DNA of 64,000 nucleotides. Origin: Polychytrium aggregatum (taxonomy: Eukaryota > Chytridiomycota > Chytridiomycetes > Polychytriales). The number at the start of each line of letters is the position of its first letter. Within the stretch, counting starts at the first letter, position 1. The position numbers were made by a program, and so were the translations under genes. Shown in pieces: positions 11,592-46,072 of this stretch. The notes under the pieces were generated by a model. That model made no database searches. It saw only the letters and a list, made by a program, of their open reading frames with translations, and was not told where the DNA came from. The DNA lies in the NCBI RefSeq assembly GCF_025602895.1, contig NW_026516293.1, positions 62,001-126,000 on the forward strand, in the 5' to 3' direction.

Positions 11592-12319
11592 TCCGTGCTA
11601 TCACGTCGAGCAAGCCTCTTGCCGATATATAGGCGGTTATCGCTGGCTGAGGGGCGGCGATTTCTTGGGTTATGTGATCCAGAGACCCAAAGCCAGGGCT
11701 GAGCCGTGGCTCAGCATCGACTCGTACCTGATCAGCTTTCCTCGCTTTGAGCTGGCGTTGCTGAGGAACAGGTGCAGGGTCACCTTGGGCTGTCCCTGTT
11801 CAATCAATTTACCCAGTCGGGATCCATCCAGTCGTGATTGCCTGACGTATGCGGTGCTCCGCAGCAAGTGGACACCCCCCGCAGCCTGTCCATGTGAATC
11901 ACACTGAGCAAGTATCGAATTTCTCCGCACGCATGTTCAAATACCGCTGCATTGAACGTTTCGAGCCCCACCTGCACACCCGATGCAGCCTGCTCTCAAC
12001 CCCGGCTCTCGCTGGCCAGAAAGGAGCACTTGCCATCCAGCCGTCTCTCCCTGTCAAGCATTCGTTGCTCATCAGCGTGAGGAAATGCGCAATGTTCACA
12101 TTGAACAAATCAAAACGGAATTCCTGTTGTTTTATCAGAGTTATGGCATTGTCCAGAACACAATGCGAGCTGGAGCGTCGGAGGGCAACGACACAGGGAG
12201 CTGAAGTGAATATTTGCGGCTTCTGTTCTTCACAAACAACTACTCCGAACCTTGTCAACGTCCGGTGCAAGTTTTGATTGTCCGTTGCTAGAGGCACAGT
12301 TGGGACATTTACAGGCAAT
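11592..12319. other. Intergenic region left of the mariner-Fanzor element
   Basis: Only short frames without recognisable features. It contains the promoter region of the membrane-protein gene (first ~100 bases, leftward) and the flank of the transposable element. Confidence 0.5.
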
Positions 12320-12337
12320 CCAATAAAAAACGGGACA
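12320..12337 (+). repeat. Left terminal inverted repeat
   Basis: CCAATAAAAAACGGGACA, 50 bases upstream of the transposase start. It shares AAAAAACGGGACA with the right end. Confidence 0.7.
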
Positions 12338-12386
12338 CCCGGGTTTTTGACCATTCATCGAATATTTTGTTACCCAATGTTATCGC

Positions 12387-13316
12387 GTGCTGGCCATGAC
12401 CATTCGCCACACATCCGACTTTCGCACCGCCGCATTGCGATGCTACGCCCTCATCCATAGCCTGCGTAAGGTCGCCTCCATATTCAGTGTATCCAAGAGC
12501 ACCATCCATCGATGGCACCGAGGATGCAAGCTGGATGACCCATCCCGGGTCCCAGCTCGCAGATCCACTTTCTTCGAGCAGGCATGTCCAGTCATTCGCA
12601 CCCTGATTGAACAGGACCCGTTCCAGACTGGTCCTGTGTTGCGATGCAAGCTCGAGTCCATCCTCCAGAGGAAAGTATCACTCTCACTCTGCCACACTGC
12701 CATCCACCGAGCAGGTCTCTCAGACAAGAGGGCAACACACCTCTCCAAGTCCAAGCGACTGGCACAGTTCAGGGACCAGGTCCGCTCCATCGACCCGCGG
12801 CGATTCGTTTTTGTCGATTAGACAGGGATCAGGAGATCCATTTTCCCTCTCTACGGATACTCACCGAAGGGTGCTCCTCTTCGCCAGCGCAATCACATGA
12901 AACACAAGTCTGTCTCGGCTGCATTTGCCATCAACCACTCTGGTGTGCTGCATCGCATGTACATCCCCACATCATTCAAGACACACTCGATGGTCGAGTT
13001 CTTTGAGCGAGCGAGCTTCCCAGACGACTCTGTGATTGTGATGGACAATGTCAGCATGCACAAGACAATGGCTGTCCTGGACTGCATCGAGCGCCGAGGA
13101 TGGTCAGTGATCTTCACCCCATCTGCTTCACCCGACTTCAATCCCATCGAGAACTTCTTTGGGATTGTGAAGCATCAGTACAGGAAGGTGGCAGCGCTGA
13201 ATGCGTCCGAGGGGTTCAAGATCGGGATGGTGACCCTGTTTGAGTCTGCCGTTCGGAGGGTGCTTCCAGATGTCTTCCCACGGCTGATTGAGCGAGCGAT
13301 GCGCTTCTGGGGTTGA
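12387..13316 (+). pseudogene. Tc1/mariner-type DDE transposase with one amber codon
   Basis: One frame of 310 codons encodes a helix-turn-helix DNA-binding region (KVASIFSVSKSTIHRWHRG), the first catalytic Asp (FVFVD), the second Asp (VIVMDNVSMHK) and the catalytic Glu (SPDFNPIENFFG). The spacing between the last two is D34E, diagnostic of the IS630-Tc1-mariner superfamily. The only defect is TAG at 12819-12821, directly after the first catalytic Asp, where the family normally has Glu (VDE). The frame is the same on both sides (TGIRRSIFPLYGYSPKG follows), so this is a single nonsense substitution. A second possible start lies at 12396. Confidence 0.9.
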
Positions 13317-13431
13317 GCTCCCCAATCACGCCGCCATTTTCACGCTCAAATCCCTGGCTTGAACCTCTCGGCGATTTTTGAACAGGGTCACTTCCCCAAC
13401 CAGCCCGCGCAGACGGGTTCCTGCTCTCGGG

Positions 13432-13437
13432 TATAAA
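13432..13437 (+). promoter_or_regulatory. TATA box of the Fanzor1 gene
   Basis: TATAAA in the context GGGTATAAATGCC, about 130 bases before the Fanzor1 ATG. It suggests that the nuclease is expressed from its own promoter and not by read-through from the broken transposase. Confidence 0.55.
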
Positions 13438-13564
13438 TGCCACACCTTCGTCCTGCTGCTTTCTTCCCTCATCTCGCCTTGATCGGATCATCGCGCTATT
13501 GTACGATAAAAAAGTCTCTGCTCTGACCAGTACCACTGGCAGGCATCCAGCATCCTCTGCCCCC

Positions 13565-15931
13565 ATGCCTCCGAAGCGTAAGGGTACCGGTGATGGCCAG
13601 CCTCGGCCACCCAGGCCCAAGAAAGCCAAGTCACAGTCGGAGCCTGTCTCTGGTTCGTATTCTGATCCCACGCATGCTTGTTTCTCTGTTGCTCCGTCGC
13701 TCACCACCACTGCTTCTGCAGATCCAATGGATGTCGATCCCACCGAGCCTGGTCCCTCATCTGGTCCTGTCAAGCGATGTCGCAAGTGTGATGGTACCGA
13801 TCACGAGCGAAGCAACACTAGCAAGTGTCCCGAATACCGGCCCCTCAAGAGTTCTGTCGTCCCACTCGTGGATGGAAGGTCATCCGCCCCTCAGTTCAGC
13901 TGCTTCAAGCAGACGATGGATGGCTGTTGTCTCAATCCCGCTCTCCGCGACAAGATCCAGGCCACCGTCGAGGCCATGACCCAGATCCAGTTCGAGGCAT
14001 CCAGGCTGCTCAACCTGCACATCCTCCGGTGCATCGAGCAGGATCTTCCCGTCCCCGTCATCTCCAAGTCCACCCCTGCTTTCATCCGCCAATGCTTTAA
14101 GATCGTCCAGGCCGGTGCCCTCTCCCCGACCGGGGACAATGAGAAATACAACGAGCATCTGGTCGCTTCCTTTCGCGACTACCAGACCACTCGGCACGCA
14201 GACCTGCCTCCGGCCCCTTGTCTGCCTGATGGTGCTCACAGTCAGCTTCTCACACTGGCTGTCAATGCCTATGCCACCAACTGCACCACCCACCTCGACC
14301 TGGCCTACTGGCGACTCCTTCGCCGCTTCTGCGCTGCCGTCTTCCCAGCCAACAAGCATAAGCACGACGCCATCGAGGCCTGTCTCGAGCTCTTCGAGAA
14401 ACCAGGGCAGACTCCACCCAAGGCCGATCTCGAGTTCCTCTATCCAGACTTTGGCCACGTCCTGGACGAGTTTCGGTACAGCAACGACCAGGACCGCTTC
14501 CGGGCCCTCCACCGCCTCTCACACCATGTGGGTTTCCTTGCCCGGGACAAGATGCAGGACGATGTCCACAAGTGGATCGACTGTGACATGCCCGCCCTCC
14601 GAGTCACCGAGCTGCAGCGCCAGGCCAAGCTGGACGAGCTCACTGCCAGAGGCATTCCCTCCGACGACAAGAGGTTCACCAAGGCCAAGTCTGAGCTCGG
14701 CACCACCAAGGCCAAGATCAACAAGCTGGCATCCAGGATCAACTGGGCACTCAAGCAGCTCGCTCTCGACACTCCTCCGGCCGTGTGCACGATGGTTCCT
14801 CTATGCACTGCCACGGCCAAATACATCAAGATCGACACGGTCACTCTCTGGCAACTCCTGGGTCCAAAGAAGCGCCTTGGACTCACCAGGGACATGCTCA
14901 AGGAACAAGGTGATGACGGTGTCAACAACCAGGATCGTCTCTGGCGCAGTTGCTTCAAGCTGCGTAGTTCCCTCTTCCAAGAGCGGGTCAGGGACAAGAA
15001 GCTGTTCAACTACGAGATCAGCACCGATGGCATTGGATGCACCATCGGTCTCGTCAAGTTTCTGCCTCGAACCGATCGCACCGAGACCTCCGAGCCTCCT
15101 CCGACTGCCGAGCAGCGCATCCAGGCCCACATCGGCGACCCAAACCCCGATCGCACCACTTGGATTGGCATCGATCCTGGAGTCGGCTCCATCTTCACTG
15201 CGGTCATCCAAGCACCGGGCCACCAAGACGAGGTGGTCTCATTCTCGAATGGTCACTACCAGCACATGTGTGGCCATACGTCCAACACCAAGTGGCACAA
15301 CACCATGAAGTATCGACTCAGCATCGAGACCTGGATGTCGACCACCCCCTCGCCCAAGGTGTCGTCCTCGGAGGCTTTCAAGGTCCATCTCACCCATGTC
15401 CTGCGACCGGAGCTACGAGTGCAGCTCGACTTCCACCTTGGCAAGAAGGCCCGTCACCATCGCTTCACGGGCCACAGGAGACGCCAAGTGGCCGTCGACA
15501 GGATGTGCAAGGCCGTCCTGAGGCACGCCCCGATACGGACCGATGTGGTGATCGCCTTTGGCAATGCATCATGGCGACAGGGCAAGGGCTATGCATCCAG
15601 CCCTCGGAGGCAGCGGTTCGCTCGGTACTTTGAGCAATTCGAGCACCACCGACGCCGTCCCAATCACCATCATGGAAGCGTCAAGGTGGCCTCGACGAAC
15701 GAGTTCAACACCTCGCAAGTGTGCTCCAAGTGCCTGGAGCCAGTTCGGTTGGAAGGACTCGATGCGCCCAGTGTTGCGAATTCCCACTTTGTCAGGAGCT
15801 GCAAGAATCCCAGCTGCCGGACAGTGTGGAATCGCGACGTCAATGCGGCGCGCAACATGATCACAGTGTGCAGGTCGATTGTGGAGATCGGAGAGCGACC
15901 GGCGGTCTTCACTCGGAGGCTGCCAAAGTGA
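13565..15931 (+). CDS. Fanzor1 RNA-guided nuclease (eukaryotic TnpB homologue), intact
   Basis: A complete 788-aa intronless frame. ATG at 13565 (MPPKRKGTGDG) is the first in-frame ATG. Basic nuclear-localisation-like stretches follow at once (PPKRK, RPPRPKKAK), then a zinc-knuckle-like CRKC...H...C (about residues 71-87). A helical middle part (about 120-500) precedes the RuvC nuclease. RuvC-I is WIGIDPGVGSIF (Asp about 537), the alternative catalytic Glu is in STNEFNTSQVC (about 713), the zinc finger is CSKC...CKNPSC, and RuvC-III is WNRDVNAARNM (Asp about 758). The classical RuvC-II position (VVIAFGNASW) lacks Glu, as in other Fanzors. Such proteins cut DNA guided by an RNA encoded at the gene's 3' end. 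All catalytic positions are present, so it may be active. Confidence 0.92.
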   Translation: MPPKRKGTGDGQPRPPRPKKAKSQSEPVSGSYSDPTHACFSVAPSLTTTASADPMDVDPTEPGPSSGPVKRCRKCDGTDHERSNTSKCPEYRPLKSSVVPLVDGRSSAPQFSCFKQTMDGCCLNPALRDKIQATVEAMTQIQFEASRLLNLHILRCIEQDLPVPVISKSTPAFIRQCFKIVQAGALSPTGDNEKYNEHLVASFRDYQTTRHADLPPAPCLPDGAHSQLLTLAVNAYATNCTTHLDLAYWRLLRRFCAAVFPANKHKHDAIEACLELFEKPGQTPPKADLEFLYPDFGHVLDEFRYSNDQDRFRALHRLSHHVGFLARDKMQDDVHKWIDCDMPALRVTELQRQAKLDELTARGIPSDDKRFTKAKSELGTTKAKINKLASRINWALKQLALDTPPAVCTMVPLCTATAKYIKIDTVTLWQLLGPKKRLGLTRDMLKEQGDDGVNNQDRLWRSCFKLRSSLFQERVRDKKLFNYEISTDGIGCTIGLVKFLPRTDRTETSEPPPTAEQRIQAHIGDPNPDRTTWIGIDPGVGSIFTAVIQAPGHQDEVVSFSNGHYQHMCGHTSNTKWHNTMKYRLSIETWMSTTPSPKVSSSEAFKVHLTHVLRPELRVQLDFHLGKKARHHRFTGHRRRQVAVDRMCKAVLRHAPIRTDVVIAFGNASWRQGKGYASSPRRQRFARYFEQFEHHRRRPNHHHGSVKVASTNEFNTSQVCSKCLEPVRLEGLDAPSVANSHFVRSCKNPSCRTVWNRDVNAARNMITVCRSIVEIGERPAVFTRRLPK

Positions 15932-16003
15932 TTTGATTTATTTCTTGTGGCTTTGCTTGACGCAAGCACAGCACATACTACATGTTCATGGAAACGGCTA
16001 TAT
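15932..16003 (+). ncRNA. Possible 3' guide-RNA region of Fanzor1
   Basis: The stretch between the Fanzor1 stop and the right terminal repeat contains a perfect hairpin, TGCTTG-ACG-CAAGCA (15954-15968). Fanzor guide RNAs end at or near the element boundary, so an RNA is expected here. The limits and existence are inferred. Confidence 0.3.
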
Positions 16004-16019
16004 TGTCCCGTTTTTTCTG
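16004..16019 (-). repeat. Right terminal inverted repeat
   Basis: TGTCCCGTTTTTTCTG, the reverse complement of CAGAAAAAACGGGACA. An AATAAA immediately outside (16020-16025) could serve as a poly(A) signal for Fanzor1. Confidence 0.7.
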
Positions 16020-16209
16020 AATAAAGTGTAACCCTCCAAATGTAAGCCTGTGTGTTTGTTTGATGAAGATTTCGAATGTATATTGCTTGCGATGCATGTC
16101 GAAAAGGTGAGTTCACATGTTCAATAGATGTTGGTGCTGTTTGCCAAACGAAAGGAGTCATTCTAGAGCCCACATCATCATCATCGTCATCATCAGCCAC
16201 GCACGTCCT

Positions 16210-31901: not shown

Positions 31902-34168
31902 TCTTGCTCAGGCAATGTCGGCAAGGATGGTGCTGAGGACAGCAGCGATGAAAACAGGAATGTGGTGGGAGATAGAAAGAGGGAGGGATGCTGGGACGAG
32001 GTTGGGGGAGACGGAGACAGCGAGTGCTGGCCGGGGTGTCAGGTCTGTGGAAGCCCAAGAGACGCTGTTTCTGCGACAAGCCCTGGATATAAAGGTCTCT
32101 CGAGGAGTTGTTTGCAAAGAGATGTCAGGGCCGCAGAAGCGTCTGGGAGCGGAGCTCTTGATGTTGTTGGAAGCGCAAGCGGCGTCGACTTGGTTGTTGT
32201 TGGGTGCTGGAAGGCCCCGCGGGGACAGGAAGGAAGATCGCCGGATTCCCAGTCAACAAAATGAAGGGCTGGGAAGAAGATTGGTTGACGAGCAGCCGAA
32301 CAAACGCCACAGTGTCATCGACAGCGACGGCGGCGATGGTGGAAACGGAGGCGATGGTCGAGGGCTCCAGAGGTACAGCAGCAGCCAGAGACGCAGTGGG
32401 TGAGGCAGAGGGACCCGATAGTTGCGCACTGTGTTCGCGGGATTGAAGAAGCGCCGTGGCCGCAAATACTTACAGCAGGGCCGTTGTGGATGTAATCGGA
32501 AGCAAGGATGCACTCAACTGCCTCGAATGGTGGCAAAGCGCTGAACACTGTTGGGATTCGCCAGCAGCAGCAGCAGCAGCAGCAGACAATGCCGATACGT
32601 GGGTGGTGTGTATTCAGCGAGATGTTTGCAGTCGCGAAAGCCAAATCAGCGTTTGACGAGCACAGTCTCTGTGCCTGGGCTGGACTTGACTGGGCTGGGG
32701 GAGTGGCAACGAACGGAACAGAACAGCTCAAGAGAAAGTGTTTTGCCAGAGTTTGGTCTGGCCTCCATCCGCCTGCCACTGCATTCCCTGGAGAACGGTG
32801 GGCCGCGGCCGGTCCTCACTTTTAGCAAAATAAACAATACTCTGTCGATTGCAGGGTCGGCGTGGAGTTGCTGCGTGATAGGGCCGGGGTGGCTCGAAGG
32901 CAGGCTGAGAGAATGGGCAGCTACAACACCTGAGGCGAGGCAGGCAACTGCAGGGCCTCCGCGAGGTATTTTGTTCCGAGCCAAGGGACACATTGCATTC
33001 ACACAGCGGATGGGGCGTCGCCGAGGTGGCCATTGATCGACAAAGCCAAAGAACAGAGAATGGAGGACCCAACGCCGCTTGGTGTCTGGAGGTCAGCGCC
33101 GAGCGAATTGTGATGCAGCGCTCGCTGCGAATCTGGCCCACCAATGCACCCGCGAGAAGAATCGGGGGGATCAGCGTCGCACCTGCACCAATCGGCCGGT
33201 CACCAGGAGCGATCGATTGTGGGGACATCAATGTCAAGTCTGGGGAGAGCTGTGGCCATTGATGGGACACCAGCGGGGACCCACCATCCCTGGCCCGAGC
33301 AGGCTCGCCCAGAGCGGCCCCCCGGATTGCAGATGGATCAAAGCAGAGGAGTGTGCGGTCGCCTCGCAGGTACAGGCGATCTCTCCAAGCAGATATCCGA
33401 TGCAGGAGCCGCAACGGGCAGGAATGAACAACGACGAGCAGAAGCGAGCAGGAATAAACGGAAAGCGTGCTGGATAGACCATGGGCGTCATCACTTCCGA
33501 CAAGCCATTCCATGATATCTTATCGGCAAAGTCCATCGCAACAGCGCGAGTCCCGAACGATGTCGTTAACAACGAACCAGTTTTGAACCGGGACACCTTC
33601 ACACGCAGATGGCTTTGTGGATCGGTTGATGATGATCGATCTGGCTGAACGACATGGATCGGTATCCAAACCAGCGATATTGCTCTTTGCCCTGTCTTCC
33701 TCCCTCATCCCAGGTGTGTATTCTTGCCCTGACCTGCAGTGGCTCACTGGTTCCCGTCGTGCCCACTCACTCCATGCATCTCCCTCACTCAGGGAAATGA
33801 CTTGACCGGGTGTGTGATATGATCCGACTACGCCGTGTTGTCGGAATGAGACGATGTCCCGTTGTCAGTTCAACACGCTGTACCTTGACGATCGATCAAT
33901 ATAACTCAATTCAAGTGCCGTTTCGACTGGGCGGACTGCCATCCGGGTCCGATTCATGGAAGCCTCATTCGCCCAAGACATCGCTCGTCGTCGTACCAAC
34001 AGCTTAGTGATAGAAAGTCGTCAGTATGTTGCCCTCATTTGTGCAATTGGAGCCAAATACACCATCGATGTCGGCACTTGCTCGATCGGAGGGATGTGAG
34101 TGCTTTTCATGACCTCCGGGCTGCTTGATGGTGGATTCATGACCCGGCAACATCCCAACACAGTCAAA
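31902..34168. other. Intergenic, no gene recognised; contains a CAG repeat
   Basis: More than 2 kb with only overlapping, motif-free frames on both strands. Eight CAG triplets at 32562-32585. It presumably includes the promoter of the leftward kinase gene. An undetected, highly spliced gene cannot be excluded. Confidence 0.4.
32562..32585. repeat. (CAG)8 microsatellite
   Basis: Perfect trinucleotide tract, not inside a recognised gene. Confidence 0.9.
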
Positions 34169-34187
34169 CCAGAAAAAAAACGGGACA
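34169..34187. repeat. Third copy of the mariner-Fanzor terminal repeat
   Basis: CCAGAAAAAAAACGGGACA, nearly the same as the right end of the 12.3-16.0 kb element (reversed). It sits just beyond the C-terminus of a Fanzor1 fragment, exactly as in the intact element. Confidence 0.75.
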
Positions 34188-34560
34188 GTCACTTTCTGGC
34201 TTCTGAAGCCCGCTGACTGACTTGTAGGCCCAGCGGGCAGGCCATGGCATTGCACTCCTGTCTTCGTCGGCAATCTCCTTGATTTCGTTGGTTGGGAAGC
34301 ATGGTCTTGAATACACCCGGTCGATCTCCTGTGGCGATGGTCGACTGGCATACCGAGATCATGTTCCTGGCTGCATTGATGTCTCGATCCCACAGCGTAT
34401 GGCAGCTTGCACAGCTCCGGACAAAGTGTGGTTTCTCGATATCAAGATGGCGCTGTGCTCGGCCATGATTGCAATGAGTGGGTGGGTGTATTCAGGTCAC
34501 AGAAAACACACTGTCATGGGTCAAAACGGAGCGTCCCATTTCATTTTGGTAACGCTGTAA
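34188..34560 (-). pseudogene. Truncated Fanzor1 C-terminus (second Fanzor1 locus)
   Basis: On the minus strand one frame reads KPHFVRSCASCHTLW, then DRDINAARNMISVCQ, and continues (GDRPGVFKT) to a stop near 34208. This matches the RuvC-III/zinc-finger end of the intact Fanzor1 (SHFVRSCKNPSCRTVW, NRDVNAARNMITVC, GERPAVFTR) but is clearly a different, diverged copy. Upstream, pieces such as QNEMGRSV and CVFCDLN recall the NEF and first zinc-finger segments but need frameshifts. Nothing earlier in the protein is present before the E(z) gene starts at 34625. Confidence 0.75.
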
Positions 34561-42504: not shown

Positions 42505-43113
42505 GGTTGGTTGTGAGGTTGGCTGCTTTCGTCTGGGGTGCGGTCGTGGGAAAGACAGAATCAGTCCAGAGACGATGCGACCAAACTCATCACTCAATGC
42601 AGCGGACGTCAGCCCATACCAATCGCAGATGCAGCTGCCCATCTAGGCGTTGCCCGCCGGGCTCATACTCTCTGCCATCGTGAATGCAAGTCTTCCTGTC
42701 GAGGCGTTCGCGGAAGCTATCCAGTCGATCGAGAGATACGCGAGCGAGACCTCCAAGGAAGTAGCCAGCTCTGGCAAGATCAAGATCGAGCTATTGCTGC
42801 CCTGTGTCTACAAGAGTTCTGGTACCCCAGAGCCATCGGCCAAGGACTGCGATGAGGGTGGTCAAGACGTTCATCCGACCGATGACGGAGGATTGATCGA
42901 CCCTCGAGACCCTCAGCAGGCAGCGGGCGGTGATACTCAGCAGACTACTGCCTGCATCTCTGTTCCTGTTCATACAGAGCATCCCACGATGCAATGCTCC
43001 TCGGCTGCAGCCCCATAGCCCCGTCGACAACACTGCCGCACTCTGCACTGTCTCATTTGCCAGATCAACTTTATTCTCAAGAGCGACCTTCAGCCGGCTG
43101 TTGACGCTGTTGC
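42505..43113. other. Intergenic between CNBD2-like and TKL-Sel1 genes
   Basis: A plus-strand open frame (42647-43018) reads sensibly (IVNASLPVEAFAEAIQSIE) but has no ATG and no partner exon that I can find. It is not called. Confidence 0.4.
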
Positions 43114-45054
43114 TCATAAGCATCCTACGAGTTTAACATCAACATGATATCCATGAGTATATCCCCTGCCTTCGTTGGTGTTCGAGCCCAGTTTGGTAGC
43201 CTTGATATACCAATCTAAGCTAGCTAATGGATTGCAGACGACTCCCAGGCCCATCGCAAAACAGTCGCCAAGAGCCCACATGCTGTATCCATTGTTCTGG
43301 TCGACGGAGGCCCAGTACCACTTCAGCGCCTTTGATCTGCTGCGGAGTGTTCCCAGACGGAAGGAATAGCAGTGTCCGAGCCAGTACTGGCTGTCGCTGT
43401 GTCCCTGCTTGGCGAGCTCCTTGAAGATCGTGAAGGCCCGGTTCTTGTCCTGCTCGGTGCCGAACCCGTTGACATAGCACACGGCCGTCAGATGCTTGCA
43501 GAGCCAGTCGTGCTCGGATCCCATGTGACAGAGCTCAAAGTACTTGCAGGCCGCAGCCGACCTCGACGACACCAGTACAAAGCCGCTCAGACACGATCTC
43601 TCGCCAAATTTGAAGTCGGAAGTGTATGTTGCGCTCTCCTGGATTTGCTTGATGCCGGTGACGGTGTCTCTGTCCACTCCGCGACCGAGATACCGGAGCC
43701 AGCCTTGCATATGCAAGGCGATGGGAGCAAGCATCGGGTCGCCAGATTTCTTGTGGACCTTGGTCCAGTACTCAAGGGACTTTTCAAAGTCTTGGTTGAC
43801 ACCCATGCCGATCATGTACATCCAGCCGAGATAGAAGCAGGCCTCGGGGTTGTCTCCGTCGGCCAGATGCTGGAAGATCTGGAGGGGAGTTTTGTTGTTG
43901 GGCTGGGAGGGCTGGGAAGGCTGAGAAGCCGAGTGGTGGGCGGTGTGCTTGGCAAGGAACTTGAACAGACCCCGCGGCGGCTCTGGCAGCTCCGGCAGCT
44001 CTGGCGGCTTGAGCAAGCTCTCGGCGATATCGAGGGCGGCGTCGGGATCGCCGGCACGGAAGCGCTGGACCATCGACGGCGACAGATTGCAGTCGGCGGG
44101 AAGATCCACGGACACGGCCTGGGAGGACTTGGATGTGTCGGGGGACTTGGGTGGGTCCGATGGGTCCGATGGGTCCGAGGAGCTGGGCTGCTCGGGGGTC
44201 GGGCGGATATAGTCCTTGTAACAGTCGAGGGCCTCGACGATGGCGGGGAACTTTGGGCGACCATCGGGAGCCTGTGCCCAGCACTCGCTGATGAGCTGCC
44301 AGACGTCATCAGAGACACCGCTGATGCGTGCGGGTCGGTCGCCGCGAAGAACATGTCTGGTGATCGAGCCGTTATCCAGGCGGTTGCCATTGCGGGTCCA
44401 TGCGGGCCGGCCGTCCTTGATGACCTCGACCGCAGCGATGGCAAAGGCAAAGACGTCCGAGCGCTTGGTGATCAGCGTTTGGTGCGGCCCACCCAGCAGC
44501 TCGGGGGCCATGAAGCCGGGAGTGCCGGAAATCGAGCCCTCTCTGTTGTCGCTTCGGTCCGAGTCGGCTCGGATGCAGGCCAGGCCAAAGTCGGCAATGA
44601 CGGCCGAGAAGGACTTGTCCATCAGAACGTTGATCGGCTTCAGGTCGCCGTGGGCAATGTTGTTTGCGTGCAGATACGCCATGCCCGAGGCCACTTGGTA
44701 GAGGAGACAGAGCTTTTCGTTGAGGGGACGCACGGAGCTTGGATTGCTGATATAGGCGTGGAGTGTGCCGTTGGGCATGAATGGCGAGACGACGCAGTGC
44801 TTGGAGTTGTTGTCGCAGGCGCCGATGAACGGCAGGACGTGTGGATGGCTCAGCTTGCTCCAGATGGCGATTTCCTTCCGAAAGTCGTCCAGCAACCGAT
44901 TGTTCTGGCCGCGGAAGGGCTGCTTCACAGCAACGTCGATTCCGTTGTATGAGGCTCGGTAGACCTCGCCAAAGCCGCCGTGGGCGACGGGAGCGAGGAC
45001 CCAGTTGGTGATGCTCTCGGCAGGAATGATCCAGGACGGCGATTGTGTCGACAT
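43114..45054 (-). CDS. TKL-type protein kinase with C-terminal Sel1 repeats
   Basis: A single 646-aa exon starting MSTQSPSWIIP (an earlier ATG at 45180 adds a Ser/His-rich stretch that looks untranslated). The kinase domain (about residues 17-285) has a glycine loop HGGFGEVYRAS, catalytic Lys 44 (DVAVKQPF), HGDLKPINV (135-143, Gly in place of Arg in HRD), DFG (155-157) and GTPGFMAPE. After a Pro/Ser/Asp-rich linker (about 290-345), the C-terminal half carries Sel1-like repeats (ACFYLGWMYMIGMGVNQDFE, SQYWLGHCYS, MWALGDCFAMGLGV). Kinase-plus-Sel1 proteins act in signalling scaffolds. The HGD change is common in kinases that do not need activation-loop phosphorylation. Confidence 0.88.
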   Translation of the reverse strand: MSTQSPSWIIPAESITNWVLAPVAHGGFGEVYRASYNGIDVAVKQPFRGQNNRLLDDFRKEIAIWSKLSHPHVLPFIGACDNNSKHCVVSPFMPNGTLHAYISNPSSVRPLNEKLCLLYQVASGMAYLHANNIAHGDLKPINVLMDKSFSAVIADFGLACIRADSDRSDNREGSISGTPGFMAPELLGGPHQTLITKRSDVFAFAIAAVEVIKDGRPAWTRNGNRLDNGSITRHVLRGDRPARISGVSDDVWQLISECWAQAPDGRPKFPAIVEALDCYKDYIRPTPEQPSSSDPSDPSDPPKSPDTSKSSQAVSVDLPADCNLSPSMVQRFRAGDPDAALDIAESLLKPPELPELPEPPRGLFKFLAKHTAHHSASQPSQPSQPNNKTPLQIFQHLADGDNPEACFYLGWMYMIGMGVNQDFEKSLEYWTKVHKKSGDPMLAPIALHMQGWLRYLGRGVDRDTVTGIKQIQESATYTSDFKFGERSCLSGFVLVSSRSAAACKYFELCHMGSEHDWLCKHLTAVCYVNGFGTEQDKNRAFTIFKELAKQGHSDSQYWLGHCYSFRLGTLRSRSKALKWYWASVDQNNGYSMWALGDCFAMGLGVVCNPLASLDWYIKATKLGSNTNEGRGYTHGYHVDVKLVGCL

Positions 45055-46072
45055 TGTGGATGTGCAAGTGGTGTGGATGTGCGAGTGGTGTGGATGTGCA
45101 AATGCTGGAGGATCGATCTTGGACTGACAGTGTTCGAGAAGAGAGCGCAGTGGACGGTCGCAGGGTCGGAATTCACCCAAAGGAAGCGTTGAGAGACAGA
45201 GTTTGCGGGCTCCATCGGCGATCGCGGGGCGACGGGGGTTGATATACCAGAGTTGCGATATCGGTCGGTATCATCGACGCGTCGGTGGCGGGTCGGTGGC
45301 GGGCAGTGGCGGGGCGGCTCGGCCAACCAGAGAAGCGCTGGGGCAGTCACGTTGTTCTGGCGCGGTATCATGGCTTGGTGGATTGTTCGGTGGATTGTTC
45401 GGTGGGTTGCTCGGTGGGTTGTTCGGTGGGTTGCTCGGTGGGTTGCTCGGTGGGTTGCTCGGCAGTTCGCTCAGCCGGCCGCACGGTATCAGGATGCAGC
45501 ATCATTGGTCTCTGCATTCCTGGCCGCCTGATGATCGCAGGCGAGATCAGCATGCGGCAGCGAGCAGCCCCCAGCGGCTGTCGGCATTGGTGTCGCTCTG
45601 GGCATGGTCAGACAAGCCGCAACCCGCTGAGTACCATCCAAGATGCTTGGCCGCTGACGACAAGGGTGCGGCAGACATGAAGAATAGTATATTGGAGCCA
45701 GCAAGACAGCGTACACGTCGGGGGTCGAAGAACCTCCCACCGTACAACCCATTTCAATTTTTGGAGTGCCGTGAAATGAAAGGAAGCGGTAAGAAAAAGA
45801 TAAGCAATGCGGATGGATGATCAAGATGATGATGATAATAATGATAAGAACTGCAGCAAACACAACAGAAAAACAACAGAACCGACAAAACGAACAACAA
45901 CGGTAATCGGGCTTGGGATTGTTATCTCTTTTCCTGCATTCGTTCATGGCGGATCTTTTGGGAGGCGTTGGGCACGCAGCGGGACAAGCCAGAGTGGCGA
46001 AATTAAGTGATCGTGCTCGCTTCCACAGATTGCAATATTCGTGTCCGTCCTGGCACAGCCATGTCGGTCGAA
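45055..46072. other. Intergenic with a 12-base minisatellite
   Basis: Holds the tandem repeat listed below and an ATGATGATAATAATGATAAG microsatellite near 45826-45848. No gene recognised. Confidence 0.55.
45377..45465. repeat. TTGCTCGGTGGG 12-base tandem repeat
   Basis: About seven copies alternating TTGCTC and TTGTTC. It lies upstream of the TKL-Sel1 kinase gene. Confidence 0.9.

Follow-up and report, generated by a model that had tools for sequence, protein, structure and literature searches.

Why would a DNA transposon carry an RNA-guided nuclease alongside a transposase, and what would that nuclease do once the transposon has inserted? This question is raised by a locus of the chytrid fungus Polychytrium aggregatum, in a window of 64,000 nucleotides (contig NW_026516293.1, positions 62,001 to 126,000 of the forward strand; C410:62001-126000 in a genome of 64.7 Mb and 418 contigs), where a 3717-bp Tc1/mariner-type element flanked by TA carries a DD34E transposase and a Fanzor1 nuclease. 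Saito et al. (2023) state that the biological role of Fanzor nuclease activity is still unknown (PMC10432273). Helping an element to copy itself into the empty homologous chromosome is a role so far only suspected for enzymes of this class. Here we compare copies of this element throughout the genome, including both alleles of many insertion sites, and we give roughly even odds (a probability of about 0.5) to the reading that Fanzor-guided homing with template switching explains the patterns of the family.

A high-copy composite family with defined ends

A preliminary description of this DNA had placed the element at 12320-16019, between inverted repeats that share AAAAAACGGGACA. The inverted-repeat ends were recovered, but these coordinates had to be rejected as about 13 bp too internal: when copies were aligned with 300-bp flanks, cross-site homology extended beyond AAAAAACGGGACA, which lies 13 bp inward of the true ends, to CAGG...GTG with TA on each side, and in most aligned copies it ended at TA on either side. 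From these homology break-points we place the whole element at 12312..16028. Its imperfect terminal inverted repeats (TIRs), CAGGCAATCCAATAAAAAACGGGACA and CACTTTATTCAGAAAAAACGGGACA, occupy 12312..12337 and, on the reverse strand, 16004..16028, and the right copy of the TA target-site duplication lies at 16029..16030 (all features other than the right TIR are given on the forward strand). The element thus has both hallmarks of Tc1/mariner transposons, the TA duplication and the TIRs.

Genome-wide, AAAAAACGGGACA was matched 743 times (376 forward and 367 reverse), far beyond chance expectation, while its reversed control was matched 2 and 0 times. The preliminary description had proposed a genome search for pairs of this sequence 3-4 kb apart; from 100 listed places we fetched 28 such pairs, spaced 3.3-3.7 kb (L009-L036), and aligned them to define the ends. 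To these were added 12 other stretches around AAAAAACGGGACA (L037-L048) and 20 copies found by a Fanzor protein search (L049-L068). Matches to the transposase end and to the Fanzor end were both present in all 28 TIR pairs, several of which are internally deleted; this upholds the earlier view of transposase and nuclease as one unit between inverted repeats. The element in the window is therefore one copy of a high-copy composite family and not an isolated relic. Diverged sister families (L041, L042, L043, L044, L046) also contain the AAAAAACGGGACA core.

A one-sided target-site pattern

We found T at position -3 in 78 of 81 distinct left flanks and A or T at position -4 in 62 of them (from 100 of 154 matches listed). 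By contrast, A occupied the mirror position +3 in just 18 of 84 distinct right flanks (from 100 of 159 matches listed; Fisher p 4.6e-25 for left T versus right mirror A), and elsewhere in the window 13% of TA dinucleotides are preceded by T. Variant copies are missing from these counts because the search patterns required exact TIRs and barred one base at the far end.

In SpuFz1 of Spizellomyces punctatus, a conserved CA upstream of the left inverted repeat together with TA forms the target-adjacent motif (TAM) CATA, and the RNA reaches 14-15 nt into the right flank as a guide (PMC10432273). By analogy, TTA at 12309..12311, whose TA (12310-12311) is the left target-site duplication, is predicted to be the TAM of this Fanzor family, and the first bases of the right flank (16031..16046) the guide. 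The right end reads GTG followed by TA, and an occupied site therefore presents GTA.

Two further observations concern the flanks. TTA also precedes the left end of the sister copies L043, L044 and L046, as judged by eye, and the copies at C39:75840-79625 and C112:124838-125218 have the same 8 right-flank bases beside different left flanks, be it by chance or by ectopic exchange.

No empty alleles at 15 two-copy sites, and alleles that differ

The joined flanks of 26 sites were searched in the genome, and we infer that sites found in two copies represent the two haplotypes. Two complete copies of both flanks were found at 15 sites and a single occurrence at eight (L009, L010, L011, L016, L023, L024, L064, L068); the second copy of L033 is cut by a contig end, and L022 and L032, whose flanks occur in other combinations, were omitted. 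None of the 15 two-copy sites had an empty allele (26 sites queried, this element family alone scored).

The two alleles differ in length by at least 30 bp at 12 of these 15 sites, with flank-to-flank distances (in bp) of 3731/3602 (L020), 3611/304 (L030), 3733/307 (L055), 3734/1109 (L059), 3625/3629 (L053), 3629/308 (L062), 3737/3613 (L057), 3629/3365 (L028), 3737/3738 (L013), 3477/3515 (L018), 3736/3633 (L051), 3496/3386 (L067), 3368/3733 (L029), 3739/3739 (L050) and 3622/306 (L060). Flank lists added eight pairs with both flanks in common, three of which differ, and four pairs were fetched whole, two of which differ, bringing the differing allele pairs to 17 of 27. Four of these pair a full-length element with a short “ghost” form (see below); the ghost allele of L060 on C368 and the 1.1-kb allele of L059 on C93 are known from lengths alone.

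Allelic flanks are nearly identical, with 6 mismatches in 4404 bp and two gaps in one pair among the four pairs fetched whole, 2 mismatches in 1680 bp and a one-base gap among three fetched full-length/ghost pairs, and 8 mismatches in 6084 bp (0.13%) overall. The elements of the four whole pairs differ at 339 of 14,485 positions, and these differences fall in tracts: L052 and L054, for example, are identical at 591-1080 and 1571-2456 except at tract edges. Identical tracts were longer than in shuffles in all four pairs (P 0.009 or below). Alleles are mostly each other's closest relatives, the exception being L065, which is nearer to L050 on the same contig than to its allele L058.

As a separate observation, flanks of L032 and L022 (C81, C346, C334, C358, C24) also occur apart on other contigs, which may reflect exchange between sites or repeats in the flanks.

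Linkage is lost within tens of base pairs

Across 46 copies, one per locus, and 233 biallelic sites, mean r2 (squared correlation between sites) fell from 0.36 below 10 bp to 0.077 at 10-30 bp, 0.028 at 30-60 bp and 0.022-0.023 beyond, where 1/(n-1) is 0.022. Recurrent CpG mutation was rejected as the cause: CpG-type sites make up 52 of the 233, and r2 decays likewise across the 71 transversion sites, ending at 0.025-0.027. Copies are also near-equidistant, with a median divergence of 4.1% over 1221 non-allelic pairs. The three closest of these are neighbours on the same contig, while 11 near pairs taken as a set were not significantly closer (p 0.08); local jumping would also explain closeness within a contig.

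Target-derived patches at left ends

In a set of 49 loci (excluding L014 and seven second alleles, with no anchor for L041, L048 and L051, and with a wrong anchor for L015 and L031, which stayed in the set), we compared left tips with the target sequence following the right TA and obtained a summed match of 57, versus 26.9 under permutation, a value reached in 0 of 20,000 permutations. Target bases replace the tip of the element in L034 (9 nt), L035 (7), L019 (6) and L058 (4), and by eye over eight bases in L015, with a short microhomology visible at each join. L058 is the weakest of these, its CGGG tip being found also in L009, L033, L050 and L067 at other targets. In the direct comparison of right ends with the left flank, 48 of 49 loci had no match, the permutation covering left ends only. 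The sister copy in L041, inserted in the right end of a family element, has by eye a patch of about 9 target-derived nucleotides at its own left end.

Ghost copies retain a predicted guide RNA

The ghost form is about 308 bp long: some 95 bp come from the left end and some 213 bp from the right, the latter including the last ~115 bp of the Fanzor open reading frame (ORF) together with the predicted RNA. Genome-wide, the ghost junction was counted 52 times at no more than 2 mismatches (46 exact, alleles counted separately), and a 1.1-kb deletion form is also present (L039, L040). We rejected deletion in situ as the origin of the ghost alleles: the three that were fetched have this same family-wide junction.

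The stretch from the stop codon to the right TA (15929..16030) is a predicted guide-RNA scaffold, with a minimum free energy of -24.9 kcal/mol (z -2.17; 3 of 200 shuffles equally good) and with the right-end GUGUA, TA included, in its terminal stem. A similar end stem appears in the folds of two of three diverged sister ends (L031-flank and L041) and is absent from that of L042. A putative guide RNA at 15.9-16.0 kb is thus supported by the predicted fold and by ghosts that retain the right end.

Both reading frames show fewer amino-acid changes than expected

Judged by its sequence, the open 788-residue ORF at 13565..15931 is a Fanzor1 with its RuvC residues in place, in agreement with the preliminary description. 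It contains the Pfam TNB domain (PF07282; E 6.4e-9, above the family cut-off), the DPG motif at residues 537-539 (15173..15181), the alternative RuvC glutamate E713 (15701..15703) in the arrangement E713-x6-CxxC, and the third RuvC aspartate D758 (15836..15838). A strict published search expression for Fanzor proteins sets the DPG-to-E spacing at 120-160 and CxxC twice (PMC10711439); here the spacing is 173 and the second knuckle is CxxxxC, so that only a relaxed form of the expression matches. The Fanzor1 motif of Bao and Jurka, D-X(125,275)-[TS][TS]xx-C4 zinc finger-X(5,50)-RD (PMC3627910), is present with a spacing of 178, TSQVC and RD at 757. A sequence search of the PDB with this protein gave no significant match. 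RNA-guided DNA cutting by this Fanzor1 is a prediction from its relatives. The TATA box and nuclear-localisation-like signals described earlier are present as sequence motifs, i.e., TATAAAT at 13432..13438 as a possible TATA box and the basic stretches PPKRK and RPKKAK as candidate signals.

The Tc1-type transposase ORF (12396..13316) is broken by a TAG at 12819-12821, immediately after its first catalytic D. Its C-terminal part matches DDE_3 (PF13358, E 5.3e-20), and an intact family copy has D145, D221 and E256, with 34 residues between the second D and E, in line with the DD34E type proposed earlier. The description of a preserved nuclease beside a dead transposase holds for the window copy, but not for the family: the transposase is open at 310 residues in 7 of the 28 TIR-sampled copies, and likewise at the same site on contig C412 (L049). 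Specifically, among these 28 copies Fanzor is open in 16, the transposase in 7 and both in 5; among all 50 copies examined, 20 of which were chosen by Fanzor match, the numbers are 35, 11 and 8. The Fanzor protein search gave at least 58 matches, at least 51 without a stop (57 of 1275 first-look candidates scored). In both ORFs amino-acid changes are fewer than expected across the family, the ratio of nonsynonymous to synonymous polymorphism (pN/pS, 28 copies) being 0.47 for Fanzor and 0.35 for transposase codons 1-255, and the full Fanzor1 signature is kept in 31 of 35 open Fanzor ORFs. In a common subfamily of about 3.6 kb, ~140 bp are missing close to the transposase 3' end (element ~856-997, window ~13167-13308); its copies mostly encode a 268-residue transposase with an altered C-terminus, and in many of them the accompanying Fanzor is open.

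Homing and its alternatives

Under Fanzor-guided homing, the transposase would insert the element at TA, and an RNA from the right end would take its guide from the first ~15 nt of the adjoining flank. Fanzor with this RNA would cut the unoccupied homologue at TTA plus target and spare the occupied site, whose right end reads GTA, a difference that we propose protects it. The resulting break would be mended by copying from an occupied site; long copying may switch among many other copies, and the second allele may therefore become mosaic or even a ghost. Insertions would in this way reach homozygosity by homing, a natural form of gene drive, and the family would act as a single recombining pool. 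A cut 15-20 nt downstream of the left TAM would leave target bases on the left side alone, and microhomology priming on the donor would leave a left-end patch. A more general form of the proposal, to which we give somewhat less than even odds, is that Fanzor acts in a diploid eukaryote as a naturally occurring gene drive: every insertion would arm its own guide and be copied, with template switching, into the empty homologue once this is cut. Hundreds of DNA-transposon copies would then share a single freely recombining pool, with non-coding ghosts spreading by the same means.

Several observations weigh against homing. The control set from an unrelated repeat comprised only four allele pairs, the choice of which depended in part on equal scores; 0 of 1407 bp differ in them. 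Allele differences are not limited to the Fanzor element family, because kinase scores also differ between allelic contigs (a paralogue scoring 5173 bits on C412 and 5060 on C410, and a match of 186 bits on C26 versus 181 on C201), although they are alike in three other allelic contig pairs (C190/C56, C81/C23, C363/C68). In four of the 35 open Fanzor ORFs a zinc-finger cysteine or a catalytic residue is altered, and the right end of L029 shows a match of 4 nt, on a side to which the permutation, confined to left ends, does not apply.

The alternative that fares best, though we consider it unlikely, is transposase-driven gap repair, in which excision breaks are filled from other copies with template switching, the left T stems from an asymmetric transposase complex, and Fanzor is carried as a passenger. 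Such repair of excision gaps is established in Tc1 and P elements, open transposases exist in the family (7 of 28 copies), and both swapped alleles and ghosts would be accounted for. However, a one-sided T is unexpected under gap repair because both transposase ends treat the TA palindrome alike; the patches lie at the left end, no empty allele was found among the sites tested, and the Fanzor pN/pS of 0.47 is unlike that of a pure passenger.

Less probable again is that old insertions are homozygous by descent and were later altered by ordinary ectopic gene conversion independent of the nuclease. With flanks diverging by 0.13%, homozygous insertions are likely in any case; each of the three closest non-allelic pairs consists of neighbours on a shared contig, and the kinase paralogue differs between alleles too. 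Against this, conversion of hundreds of copies to blocks of ~50 bp needs an unusual source of breaks, and the left-only T and left patches are left unexplained.

It is quite improbable that the mosaics and allele differences are false, arising from an assembly in which repeat copies were patched from mixed reads. Loss of linkage within ~50 bp is extreme, and sites with alleles of unequal length may be over-represented on alternate contigs; but long tracts are identical within allele pairs (for instance 1571-2456 in L052/L054; P 0.009 or below against shuffles in four of four pairs), full-length/ghost differences are structural, and the left T and patches are independent of allele assembly. Finally, the picture of a near-complete unit with a defunct transposase and a nuclease retained for its own sake fits the stop and open Fanzor of the window copy and the excess of open Fanzors (16 versus 7, n=28), but as a statement about the family it is disfavoured to the point of being very improbable, given open transposases in other copies, even at the same site on C412, and a deficit of amino-acid relative to silent changes in both ORFs.

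Other repeats considered as controls

A reverse-transcriptase family was rejected as an allele control: its copies mostly have equal scores and many are clustered (150 scored copies), which makes alleles indistinguishable. Many of its ORFs are 1284 residues long with equal scores and are densely clustered (C11, C112, C115, C173, C201, C366 and others); these clusters are possibly candidate centromeres (150 scored of 1671 candidates). Two 20-kb stretches of the window were likewise rejected as a measure of haplotype divergence, being dominated by a ~400-bp repeat and the kinase family. Window positions 34160-34560 are a copy of another high-copy repeat of ~0.4 kb, found in at least 38 places (38 scored of 1080 first-look candidates), and the kinase-type gene region at 42746-45660 has a 98% identical paralogue ~60 kb away (C410:164271-167208).

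Relation to known systems and significance

The element joins a known class, as Fanzor1 in Tc1/mariner transposons, ghosts and TAM-like flanks have all been described. One of its nearest counterparts in organisation is SPu-1/SpuFz1 of S. punctatus, which likewise has Fanzor1 between TIRs at TA (PMC10432273; PMC3627910), conserved bases upstream of the left end, many ORF-less ghost copies, and a right-end RNA with a flank-derived guide, the TAM role of those bases and the RNA being known there and predicted here (PMC10432273). SPu-1 is ~2.1 kb long, and no transposase was found inside its inverted repeats, whereas the present element spans 3717 bp and contains one (PMC10432273; PMC3627910). The TAMs also differ (CATA versus the predicted TTA), and S. 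punctatus has 42 Fanzor and 134 ghost loci, compared with 743 matches to the TIR core alone here (PMC10432273). The Mariner elements PGv-1 and PUl-1 similarly combine a Mariner-type transposase and Fanzor1 in one element with TA duplications; PGv-1, however, is virus-borne, single-copy and encodes a third protein, unlike this high-copy cellular family with two ORFs (PMC3627910). The process suggested here resembles the plasmid gene drive of IS200/IS605 TnpB, in which a guide from the insertion site directs cutting of unoccupied copies and thereby spreads the element; that drive is bacterial, involves another transposase and was shown experimentally, while ours is read from genome patterns (PMC11870625).

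We found no prior report of Fanzor homing at empty alleles in the openly accessible literature, as covered by titles and abstract openings, subscription journals and most preprints lying outside this scope. Within the same literature, the left-only T, the lack of empty alleles, mismatched alleles, lost linkage and left patches are unreported as population signs of Fanzor action. The copy set offers testable natural evidence that the empty allele is where Fanzor acts once the element has inserted. The homing hypothesis can be tested in this genome because its young copies number in the hundreds, their guides and TAMs can be read, many sites are represented by both alleles, and patches are preserved at junctions. 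That copies of a DNA transposon should lose linkage almost completely would itself be surprising, and homing, if true, could explain why Fanzor has been captured by several kinds of transposon.

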